DNA from: a virus
IMG/VR virus record: IMGVR_UViG_3300037293_000208
Span: 1 to 26,506 of that record
Reading direction: 5' to 3' (one strand)
Length of the DNA: 26,506 bases
The position numbers were made by a program, and so were the translations under genes. This document shows positions 8,674 to 18,148 of the stretch, piece by piece; positions within the stretch are counted from its first letter, which is position 1; the number at the start of each line of letters is the position of its first letter. The notes beneath the pieces are model-generated. The model did not search any database. It had not been told where the DNA came from and was given only the letters and a program-made list of their open reading frames with translations.

Positions 8674-8702
8674 TAAAAAAACGGCTTGAAATAAGCCGTT
8701 TT
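8674..8702 (-). terminator. Terminator of the leftward island
   Basis: AAAACGGCTT and AAGCCGTTTT pair around GAAAT. On the minus strand the stem is followed by seven T. The stop codon of the methylase-like gene (8701-8703) lies within the stem. Only a few bases separate it from the rightward terminator ending at 8669. Confidence 0.8.
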
Positions 8703-9375
8703 AACCGTTGTTATAGTACAGAATGGAGTAAGTGTTGTTTTTCCAGAATTCATAGTTTGTAACTAACGAAAAGCGGGGTTTATCCATCTTTAAAGTGTCG
8801 TGACAATGAACCTCTCCCTTTATTTCGTGAAAGCATAAATTAATAGCGGTCATTTTGCAACACATGGGGTCTAAGTCTTCACAAACATAATAATTTCCCT
8901 TTGTTACTTGGTTAGCTGCTAAAACCATCCGCCCACTACCTGAGGAGGGTTCGTTAATAGTTTGCCCAAAATTATCTTTTTCGATAACAAAACCCGCCAT
9001 CATTTGACAAATTGATTTTGGCGTGAAATACTGCCCAAAATTCGATTTTTTATAATTCCCTATCAAACATTCGTAATATTCCCCTAGAGGGTCGCACCAA
9101 TCATTTAACAATAGATTATTTTGATAAATGACGGTTAACTCTGCAAAAAGTTTGCAAAATATATCTAATTCTTTTCGGTCGTATTTTTTAATGGTTTCTA
9201 AATACAAGGGTTCTTGTGTTCCTCTTCCCATTGCGCAAATAATCACGGTTAAAAGGTCATCAAAAACACGGTTTAAATCGTGCTTGTATTGAAAGTCAAA
9301 AAATAAGGAGTTAAATTTTTTTAACTCCTTTGGAACATCTCTATTTTTCAACATTGGCGGTTTGCACTTGAGCAT
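8701..9375 (-). CDS. N6-adenine methylase-like protein, catalytic motif not seen
   Basis: The product has 224 residues. It shows the start of an HsdM-type N6 methylase: GQYFTP (residues 114-119), the SAM-binding motif EPSSGSGR (142-149), EDLDP (166-170) and a following HDTL (192-195). In active enzymes an NPPF or NPPY motif should come soon after the last. Here the protein continues KMDKPRFSLVTNYEFW and ends at residue 224 with no such motif. It may bind SAM and DNA without methylating, need a partner, or be truncated. Similar short methylase-like proteins are, from memory, common in Bacteroidota conjugative elements. It overlaps the upstream ArdC-like gene by 35 bp. An internal ATG at 9354 would shorten the overlap. 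Confidence 0.75.
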   Translation of the reverse strand: MLKCKPPMLKNRDVPKELKKFNSLFFDFQYKHDLNRVFDDLLTVIICAMGRGTQEPLYLETIKKYDRKELDIFCKLFAELTVIYQNNLLLNDWCDPLGEYYECLIGNYKKSNFGQYFTPKSICQMMAGFVIEKDNFGQTINEPSSGSGRMVLAANQVTKGNYYVCEDLDPMCCKMTAINLCFHEIKGEVHCHDTLKMDKPRFSLVTNYEFWKNNTYSILYYNNG

Positions 9376-9700
9376 TAGAAAATAAATAACAAATCGGATA
9401 AAAAGAAAATTTCTTTTCTTCTTCGGTCTTGGGTTCTGCGGTTGCTTTGTCTTGGTCGCTTTTTCGTTTCCTTCCCCAAACTAAAAAGGCTTTTTCTCCT
9501 TTTTTCACTCGGTGCCCTTGTTTAATCCATTCTTTGAAAGTGTTAAATTCTTTGTGTTCCCCTTTCTGATAAAAATCATCAATTAAAATACTATTGATGT
9601 TTCGGGGTTCGTCCTCCATTTCTTGGATTTCCTTTGCTAATTTTGAAAGTGCTATTAATGCTTTTTTCTTGGCTTGGTGTTCTGCTTGCTTGTCTGTCAT
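9341..9700 (-). CDS. ArdC N-terminal-like ssDNA-binding protein
   Basis: The product has 119 residues. Residues 52-79 (FNTFKEWIKQGHRVKKGEKA then FLVWGRKR) and 98-111 (FSFYPICYLFSNAQ) match the pattern of the ArdC N-terminal domain, which carries 'W...G..V.KGEK...V.W' and ends 'LFN.AQ'. ArdC proteins protect incoming single-stranded plasmid DNA, and the N-terminal domain binds ssDNA. There is no C-terminal metalloprotease domain here, so this is the binding part only. It lies 3 bp after the SymE-like gene and overlaps the methylase-like gene, so the three form one operon. The content points to a conjugative or mobilisable origin. Confidence 0.65.
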   Translation of the reverse strand: MTDKQAEHQAKKKALIALSKLAKEIQEMEDEPRNINSILIDDFYQKGEHKEFNTFKEWIKQGHRVKKGEKAFLVWGRKRKSDQDKATAEPKTEEEKKFSFYPICYLFSNAQVQTANVEK

Positions 9701-16172: not shown

Positions 16173-16235
16173 ATGTTTCAAAAAATTTTTGAATTAAAAA
16201 AAGTTTTTTATTTTAAAAAGACAGCAACAAAATGA
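16173..16235 (+). CDS. Possible 20-residue leader peptide before hicB
   Basis: The sequence is ATG TTT CAA ... to TGA at 16233-16235. The TGA overlaps the hicB start (ATGA). The peptide is basic (MFQKIFELKKVFYFKKTATK). A leader of this form could couple translation to hicB. Nothing but the open frame and the exact overlap supports it. Confidence 0.3.
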   Translation: MFQKIFELKKVFYFKKTATK

Positions 16236-16624
16236 ATAAAAATCATCACGTAAATGTAAATTTTAAAAACGCTGAGGCTAAAGTTAAAGCCAATATCGTT
16301 TTGATATCATTTAAAGAAGAGGACAACTATATAATTTATTCACCACATCTTGAAGTTACAGGATATGGAAAAAGTGAAGAGGAAGCTATGGGATCATTTA
16401 ACCATTGCCTAGGCGCTTTTCTTGATTATACCACTAATAAAAAAACATTACACAAAGAACTTACTCGTTTAGGCTGGGAGCTAAGAAAAGGAACTGTTAA
16501 GCGTCCAAGAAAAATTAATGCTCCATCAATGTCTGATTTAGTATTAAACAATGAACAGCTTAAGGAATTGTTGAACAAGCATGATATCTCTACGATTCAA
16601 AAAGAAGTTGCTATACCCGTCTAA
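16232..16624 (+). CDS. hicB: HicB-like antitoxin
   Basis: The product has 130 residues. Residues about 18-65 form the partial RNase-H-like HicB fold: ANIVLISFKEEDNYIIYSPH, then LEVTGYGKSEEEAMGSFNHC, which has the 'G.G.t.eEA' signature. The C-terminal part is basic (KGTVKRPRKI) and may bind DNA. HicB neutralises HicA and usually represses its own promoter. It comes before the toxin gene, which is the reverse of the classical hicA-hicB order but known in the family. The toxin ATG is 3 bp after its stop. Confidence 0.8.
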   Translation: MNKNHHVNVNFKNAEAKVKANIVLISFKEEDNYIIYSPHLEVTGYGKSEEEAMGSFNHCLGAFLDYTTNKKTLHKELTRLGWELRKGTVKRPRKINAPSMSDLVLNNEQLKELLNKHDISTIQKEVAIPV

Positions 16625-16627
16625 TAA

Positions 16628-16870
16628 ATGAATACATACAAGGCTAGCAATATTCCGTTAAAAACTATATTGTGGTTTTTAGAACATAATGGATTAAAGC
16701 ATATTAGCACAGATGGAGGTCATGCAAAATATACCCGAAAAGATTTACTGAGACCCATTATAATTCAAACTCATATATGTCCAGTACCTGAATTTATAGT
16801 TTTACAAATTTTTAAGCATTTAGGATATAATAAAAAATCATTTCATACATATTGTAAAAATTATTATTAA
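16628..16870 (+). CDS. hicA: HicA-like mRNA interferase toxin
   Basis: The product has 80 residues. It matches the HicA double-stranded-RNA-binding-like fold: LKTILWFLEHNGLKHISTDG, then GGHAKYT with the expected catalytic His (H32), then PIIIQTHICPVPEFIVLQIF matching the 'P.H......gtl..I.k..G' end. The more usual residue before His is Ser, and here it is Gly. HicA cleaves mRNA when freed from HicB. A weak hairpin with T-rich tail follows. In a prophage such a pair may stabilise the element or act against other phages. Confidence 0.78.
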   Translation: MNTYKASNIPLKTILWFLEHNGLKHISTDGGHAKYTRKDLLRPIIIQTHICPVPEFIVLQIFKHLGYNKKSFHTYCKNYY

Positions 16871-17460: not shown

Positions 17461-17481
17461 ACTTCAGAGAACTAATTATTA

Positions 17482-17510
17482 AAGATGTGCAAATGCACAT
17501 CTTTTTTTTT
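17482..17510 (+). terminator. Strong rho-independent terminator
   Basis: AAGATGTGCA and TGCACATCTT form a perfect ten-base stem around AA with a following run of T. It ends the accessory unit. Its T-run and the next G form the TTTTG that serves as the -33 box of the next promoter. Confidence 0.9.
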
Positions 17511-17538
17511 GCTCATTGAATTTATATTTGTACGTTTG
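17507..17538 (+). promoter_or_regulatory. Promoter of the tail module (TTTTG-N19-TACGTTTG)
   Basis: TTTTG (17507-17511), then 19 bp, then TACGTTTG (17531-17538) fit the Bacteroidota consensus in sequence and spacing. A second box TATATTTG (17523-17530) directly precedes. Transcription should start near 17543-17546. Confidence 0.65.
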
Positions 17539-17542
17539 CAGG

Positions 17543-17675
17543 GCAAAAACATTACAAGGTTACCCATTCTAAACTTTTTTAAGTTAACATAAGCGAACCC
17601 TCGCCACGTTGTAGGTGCTAGTGATAGCCCTGATCTCATTCCTTGGAATGTTTTTGCACAACCGAAGCGAGGGTT
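17543..17675 (+). ncRNA. Structured leader RNA, possible pseudoknot
   Basis: Two interleaved inverted repeats lie here. GCAAAAACATT (17543-17553) pairs with AATGTTTTTGC (17647-17657). AACCCTCGC (17596-17604) with GTTGT (17608-17612) pairs with ACAAC (17658-17662) and GCGAGGGTT (17667-17675). The first partner's second half lies in the loop of the second stem and abuts it, which is pseudoknot topology with room for stacking. The RNA would begin right at the first strand, given the promoter upstream. I know of no matching family. It may control the gene at 17699. Confidence 0.45.
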
Positions 17676-17698
17676 TCGTGTATTTTATATTTTCAGAT

Positions 17699-18148
17699 AT
17701 GCAAAAAGAAAATCAAAATCAGAATGAATTACCGAGTGTTGGGATTCCATTTTCAACTGTTCCAGTAAAAATATTTTACGGAAAAGGAAAAGCGGTAATG
17801 ATTAAAGACAAGTCCTTTAAACAAGCTATGATTAGGATATGGCAATCGGACGAATTTAAGGACTACGAACCTATGAAAATGGTATTTACCAGCACTGGAA
17901 AAGTCCTGTTTATGGACAAGCAAGCCTTTCACTCCTACCTCAATGGAGGTATTACTATGCAAGAACTCATTGAACTTACAGAATGTGATGAGTTGTATCG
18001 CAATACTAAGGACTTTATAAGTGAAGGAGACTGTGTTATCGACGCAGGATCGCTATGGAAATCCAATCGAAAGGAACTTACTTTAATCGATGATGATAAT
18101 ATATTTACTACCAAAATTGATTTAACGATGTTTGAAATTGTAGAATAA
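17699..18148 (+). CDS. Hypothetical protein upstream of tape measure
   Basis: The product has 149 residues from the ATG at 17699. A GTG at 17615 is in frame, but the added part overlaps the structured leader, so I prefer the ATG. It is soluble and acidic, with VKIFYGKGKAVMIKDKSFKQ, FTSTGKVLFMDKQAFHSYLN and a final beta part. The position before the tape measure is where tail-assembly chaperones usually lie, but no slippery frameshift or second frame is seen, so I do not make that call. A terminator follows 26 bp after the stop. Confidence 0.55.
   Translation: MQKENQNQNELPSVGIPFSTVPVKIFYGKGKAVMIKDKSFKQAMIRIWQSDEFKDYEPMKMVFTSTGKVLFMDKQAFHSYLNGGITMQELIELTECDELYRNTKDFISEGDCVIDAGSLWKSNRKELTLIDDDNIFTTKIDLTMFEIVE

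Follow-up and report, generated by a model that had tools for sequence, protein, structure and literature searches.

Known from a few proteobacterial phages, the c4 antisense RNA counts among the classics of phage immunity. The C4 RNA (Rfam RF01695) is processed by RNase P to an RNA of about 77 nt and represses in trans. In hok-type type I toxin mRNAs, the 5' end and internal elements swap partners, exposing or hiding the translation start. In phages P1 and P7, C4 lies upstream of its target, is co-transcribed with it and is directed, in antisense, against the start of a small ORF; this ORF can precede an antirepressor gene, and multi-copy host versions of such systems exist (PMC5320573; PMC8198154). 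The P1 operon reads c4-icd-ant1/2 (PMC8198154). The RNA acts in trans, and its specificity resides in differences of a few nucleotides, the c4 RNAs of P1 and P7 being separated by about 4 nt (PMC5320573). A separate 'c4-a1b1' motif was listed by Weinberg in 2010 (PMC2864571).

The window, that is, the whole stretch of 26,506 nucleotides analysed here, is a Flavobacterium phage record, related most closely, among named phages, to Duneviridae (6H, 2A and FPSV-D15, for example). It contains a leader that is probably a copy-specific antisense switch of translation of the c4 type, acting here on the gene that begins at 17699.

Architecture and conservation of the leader

An intrinsic terminator of the upstream gene (17481..17512, plus strand; AAAGATGTGCA/TGCACATCTTT followed by a T run), conserved in phage relatives, would insulate the leader from preceding transcription. 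A predicted -7 promoter box, TACGTTTG (TAnnTTTG; 17531..17538, plus strand), puts +1 at 17543 when placed at the published position of -12 to -5 (PMC9723704), while an overlapping, perfect alternative box, TATATTTG (17523-17530, plus strand), predicts a start 8 bases earlier. TAnnTT[T/C]G ends 4-5 bases 5' of strand A in 69 of 74 distinct homologues, and this conserved spacing, together with the predicted +1, favours the earlier proposal that the RNA starts near strand A. For this phylum, a sigma-70 promoter scan carries no information.

Both inverted repeats of the preliminary description, of 11 and 14 bp, are present where it placed them. The first, stem A, can be lengthened beyond its 11 bp to span 17 columns, one of them mismatched (17543-17559 with 17641-17657). 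Stem B comprises 17596-17604/17667-17675 and 17608-17612/17658-17662, separated by a 3x4 internal loop, and continues outward as CG/CG (17594-17595 with 17677-17678). Taken by itself, an inverted repeat of 11 bp is unsurprising in a window so rich in AT (4 found, 2.4 expected); the interleaved order A-B-A'-B' was found once against 0.007 expected per window in order-1 Markov windows, and the nested fold of the leader beats shuffled sequences (z = -2.8).

What had been described as a 14-bp stem with a 3x4 loop is the outer and inner parts of P1 of a c4-like RNA. Strands B (17594..17604) and B' (17667..17678), both on the plus strand like all segments below, are the 5' and 3' arms of the outer P1 stem, and GUUGU (17608..17612) is the 5' arm of the inner stem, pairing with 17658-17662. 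The P2 hairpin (17614..17630) is closed by a GUGA loop of the GNRA type, which is GAAA or GUGA in relatives, and P3 is the hairpin CAUUC/GAAUG (17637..17650). Strand A (17543..17559), at the predicted 5' end of the RNA and in a position comparable to that of a1/b1 in c4 systems, combines a copy of the start target, GCAAAAA, with bases that pair with the 3' arm of P3, and is the proposed 'lock'. Strand A' (17641..17657) consists of the 3' arm of P3 followed by the antisense segment UUUUUGCA (17651..17658), which connects P3 with the 3' arm of P1 and complements strand A as well as the start codon. Stem A and P3 are mutually exclusive and both covary, so selection acts on at least two folds; because stem A competes with P3, stems A and B may belong to alternative folds rather than to one pseudoknot.

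Phages that differ in the following gene conserve the leader region at 71-86% along some 240 bases, and this similarity ends just past the next start codon. A search seed derived from this phage alignment matched nine contigs of viruses and 32 of genomes, almost all from Flavobacterium, with L009, L034 and L042 being chance matches. A covariance model built without stem B and without the start region detected the leader in 42 of 250 and in 69 of 400 Flavobacterium genomes, at up to four copies each; in the rest of the family it is rare, with two divergent copies beyond the genus matches. Phage laban6-1 has the same layout in quite different sequence. Viral contigs yielded no match in a degenerate DNA scan. 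Two copies (L039, L019) are truncated, and matches without strand A (L090/L102 (778517), the second match of L159, L172 and the second match of L081) were excluded from the tests.

Across about 110 homologous leaders from Flavobacterium phages, prophages and chromosomes, compensatory changes preserve both stems, in agreement with the structured, conserved leader originally proposed. For A:A', P1 and P2 taken together, 165 cells carry changes on both sides, against 62 in shuffles, none of 500 of which scored as high. Stem B, assessed as P1 on 86 distinct sequences, is 95.6% paired with 65 double changes (13 in shuffles), a result independent of the model since B:B' was not modelled in the search. 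Its inner continuation of 4-5 bp also covaries (GUUG/CAAC, GGUG/CACC, GAUG/CAUC), the second pair being UA, AU or GC across relatives. All five pairs of P3 covary and are 98% paired. The GTG at 17615, raised earlier as a possible coding start, lacks coding support: it would translate covarying RNA, and relatives conserve the ATG at 17699.

A word shared by strand A, the antisense and the start codon

The start region of the next gene is a third copy of the strand A sequence, which the preliminary description did not contain. The target, UGCAAAAA (17700..17707, plus strand), consists of bases 2-3 of the AUG and the following 6 bases, and forms 8 bp with the antisense segment. It sits in the loop of a start-codon hairpin (17689..17713, plus strand; AUUUUC..AUGCAAAAA..GAAAAU) whose stem reaches at least 6 bp in 82 of 86 distinct starts, as against 20% of control ATGs, and which shows compensatory variants in L126, L128 and L129.

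This word differs among leaders, and the three segments change together. The A/start pairs include GACAAAA/AUGACAAAA, GCAAAAA/AUGCAAAAA, GACUAAA/AUGACUAAA, GUCAAAA/AUGUCAAAA, GCUAAAA/AUGCUAAAA, GUCCAAA/AUGUCCAAA and GACUUAC/AUGACUUAC, and even the highly divergent words GTCCAAA, GTCAACA, GCACAAA and GACTTAC obey the three-way rule; in laban6-1, A' matches the start at 17/18, and A at 16/18. On a tree of leader cores from which these segments had been removed, A, A' and the start changed in concert at least 25 times. With a covariance model that excluded the start region, 97% of A':start cells are paired and double changes number 35 (13 in shuffles). Of 108 genomic leaders, 104 have the six-base A':start pairing complete, as do 75 of the 78 among them that lack the search seed. 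Ten starts deviate: eight by A to G, which still allows a G-U pair, one by a doubled AUG and one by loss of the start. Tolerance of G-U at the start argues for RNA pairing with the U-rich antisense rather than for repeats at the DNA level. A sub-group with the word GCAAAAAA (L020, L023, L028, L033, L035, L044, L049, L098) has a stem A longer by one base pair and an ORF longer by one codon (MQKRENQ vs MQKENQ).

Leaders within one genome tend to bear different words. The 24 genomes that carry 2-4 copies provide 45 paralogue pairs, of which none is identical over 8 nt and two are identical over 6 nt, where about 11.5 were expected (P = 0.004, with identical sets collapsed and permutation within protein clusters), in a test weakened by shared ancestry. 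Three further genomes have no identical 8-base word, one pair sharing six bases, and one tandem pair of classical c4-2 copies (in L201) does share a word. Such avoidance of shared words, read as an avoidance of cross-regulation, makes action between molecules likely and suggests that paralogous leaders can act on one another. On one contig, L165 and L166, 15 kb apart, have the words GCAAAAA and GCACAAA and drive two homologous 93-aa proteins, which makes them a ready-made pair for assessing orthogonality.

Relation to c4-2 RNAs and genes under control

Rfam searches with the whole window at the gathering cut-off and with the leader at E<=10 yielded no family, and the window copy did not match c4-2 (RF02944, clan CL00128) at gathering, at E<=10 or in a search with that record alone; it is too divergent to score. 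Scanning homologues was the sole route to this family: nine of 34 homologous leaders (L091, L004, L087, L104, L067, L162, L084, L071, L074) exceed its cut-off of 41, at 41.3-53.6 bits, with alignments that cover P1-P2-P3 exactly. The Rfam comparison proposed in the preliminary description therefore fails for the window copy and succeeds for its homologues, and the earlier impression of a leader unlike any known one gives way to membership of homologues in the c4 antisense clan. No score above the cut-off was obtained for RF01695 (C4) with the window or the scanned homologues; a dedicated RF01695 search also gave no match, but its controls were silent too.

The leader shares with c4-2 the order P1-P2(GNRA)-P3, a conserved P1 inner arm of the CACACCUAA type, a target at the next start, a target copy at the RNA 5' end and a downstream small ORF. 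The two differ in that the antisense of c4-2 lies mainly in the P3 loop and that of the leader in the P3-P1 linker and the P3 flank. An antisense in the P3 loop, as in the classical copies of the genus, was not found in the leader, where the covarying segment is the linker. In addition, the leader target overlaps the AUG itself, unlike that of c4-2, and the downstream small protein belongs to a different family. With the layout shared and the antisense placed elsewhere, the leader is a variant of c4-2 whose antisense has shifted to the post-P3 linker and whose target has shifted onto the AUG.

Classical c4-2 RNAs occur in 20 of 101 of the same genomes, at up to seven copies, in the order promoter, 5' target copy, c4-2, target before the start codon and an ORF of about 77 aa. 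Their P3-loop antisense shows complementarity to each copy of the target, with longest exact matches averaging 7.5 and 7.4, compared with 5.6 and 4.9 after re-pairing. Carriers include G001, G061, G067, G072 and G084 (loci L187-L206), with each RNA followed by an orphan ORF of about 77-82 aa and three RNAs in tandem in L201.

Like C4 of P1 and P7, the leader is an upstream RNA antisense to the start of a co-transcribed gene, complementarity to the translation start of such a gene being a general c4 trait. Unlike C4, the Duneviridae leader lies in the tail module, and the window has neither the small ORF nor a following antirepressor; the c4-type operon of small ORF and antirepressor is found in several relatives but not in the window or the stand-alone chromosomal copies. 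With hok-type mRNAs the leader shares the logic of partner exchange, but it has no antisense gene on the opposite strand, no hydrophobic peptide and no sequence relation to them.

The gene at 17699..18148 (plus strand) encodes 149 aa, of which the first eight codons or so (MQKENQNQ) derive from the leader element and the remainder is phrog_38077. That the leader controls this gene, as had been proposed, is supported by the complementarity of the antisense to its start codon, which covaries in relatives. In those relatives an ORF of about 90-103 aa comes first at this position; the window lacks it, and the first codons of the leader are fused to phrog_38077. In tail-module phages the order is leader, a protein of about 97-103 aa, phrog_38077, sometimes KilA-N/P22_AR_N genes, and then the tape measure. 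In three prophage-like loci the leader stands directly on Bro-N- or KilA-N-type genes, and in several relatives antirepressors (KilA-N, Bro-N, P22_AR_N) immediately follow the leader or occupy the next place in the operon. The chromosomal leader usually precedes a helical protein of about 90 aa as a stand-alone unit, which in several species lies behind what we take, from reading, to be a methionyl-tRNA synthetase-like gene. This protein is under purifying selection (dN/dS 0.19-0.26). Pfam, PHROG and NCBIfam assign it no function, and its AlphaFold model, a confident helical fold (pLDDT 86), has no significant match among PDB and viral models.

Several further observations concern these neighbourhoods. 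In L045, L138, L088, L092 and L142 the leader is well conserved beside a small ORF that carries a frameshift, a truncation or an ATA in place of its start codon. In phage 6H (L006 4215-4330) the leader start opens a frame of only 34 codons, followed by the tape-measure gene, as if the small ORF and phrog_38077 had been deleted. A marginal match to the Rfam RT-17 RNA (40.6 bits, cut-off 40.4) lies at 144-226 of L120, just 5' of a leader that drives Bro-N. Upstream in the window, two small genes at 16232-16870 resemble a HicB/HicA pair by eye, with no Pfam match at E<=0.01. On its minus strand at 8701-9700, opposite to the neighbouring genes, is an N-6 DNA methylase fragment, and the matching region of phage 1H holds a DUF932/SymE-like cassette, also on the minus strand.

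Proposed mechanism, alternatives and meaning

The leader very probably turns off translation of the downstream gene in a sequence-specific manner, as judged from these complementarities, and the c4-2 matches of its homologues lead us to prefer an antisense-type switch over a riboswitch. Transcription would begin at strand A and the RNA would fold into P1-P2-P3, with strand A and the loop of the start-codon hairpin competing for the antisense segment. An antisense locked by A would leave the start codon free. With A absent, removed or occupied, P3 would form, the antisense would cover the start codon and translation would stop. The antisense would probably act between molecules as well, giving copy-specific, immunity-like control as with c4 in P1 and P7. 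We infer from the sequence that pairing of the antisense with the start represses and that the antisense can act in trans, and by analogy that RNase P processing releases the lock.

Estimated duplex energies are about -20 kcal/mol for A:A' and about -8 kcal/mol for A':start, to which P3 adds a few kcal/mol. Since A':start is the weaker duplex, the default in cis would be a free start, translated unless A is displaced, and the energetics fit a lock that needs to be opened. Nested folding produced no sequestration of the start codon in cis, not even after deletion of A, and so speaks against a cis switch governed simply by thermodynamics. The window sequence has no terminator or processing site between the antisense RNA and the mRNA.

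The same bistable leader might instead work in cis only, with A, P3 and the start codon competing for A' during transcription, the balance being set by a signal (5'-end processing, a core-binding protein or temperature) and no antisense acting in trans. All three partners do reside on the same transcript, A:A' greatly exceeds A':start in stability and a separate antisense transcript is not predicted; we nevertheless judge this version unlikely, as it leaves the paralogues' avoidance of shared words without a reason and the c4 precedent acts in trans (PMC5320573). Very improbable is a metabolite- or protein-sensing riboswitch with the P1-P2 core as aptamer and A, A' and the start as expression platform. 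Its anti-sequestor/sequestor logic and the many invariant core bases would suit such a device, but the invariance of the seed motif comes partly from searching with that motif, the controlled genes are phage regulators or small proteins without known function rather than one pathway, and the core matches c4-2 and no aptamer family (Rfam, whole window at gathering, leader at E<=10). Of the riboswitch-like or protein-binding control element first suggested, the control leader thus survives and the metabolite riboswitch does not. The notion that chance or DNA-level repeats account for the pattern without RNA pairing, to which the commonness of 11-bp repeats in the window and the A-rich starts might lend themselves, is refuted by compensatory changes in every stem, concerted three-way changes and G-U tolerance at the start only, and has next to no probability. 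An HDV-like or other ribozyme, a group I intron guide and a reverse-transcription template were also considered and rejected, no such gene or motif lying beside the stand-alone copies inspected.

Under the preferred reading of a copy-specific antisense switch, a c4 variant built of lock, antisense and start is now seen in Bacteroidetes phages and also outside them: of 400 Flavobacterium genomes sampled, 69 carry it in stand-alone form. From the triplet of matching words one can predict which copies are able to regulate each other, so that copy-specific RNA control becomes testable in a tractable genus; otherwise unannotated leaders gain a likely function, and an orphan family of proteins of about 90 aa gains a context. 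More tentatively, and with rather low probability, the stand-alone units (1-4 per chromosome) and the adjacent classical c4-2 RNAs might constitute mutually orthogonal words for immunity or incompatibility, by which incoming phages or elements with a matching word are silenced. If this were true, only elements bearing a new word could settle.
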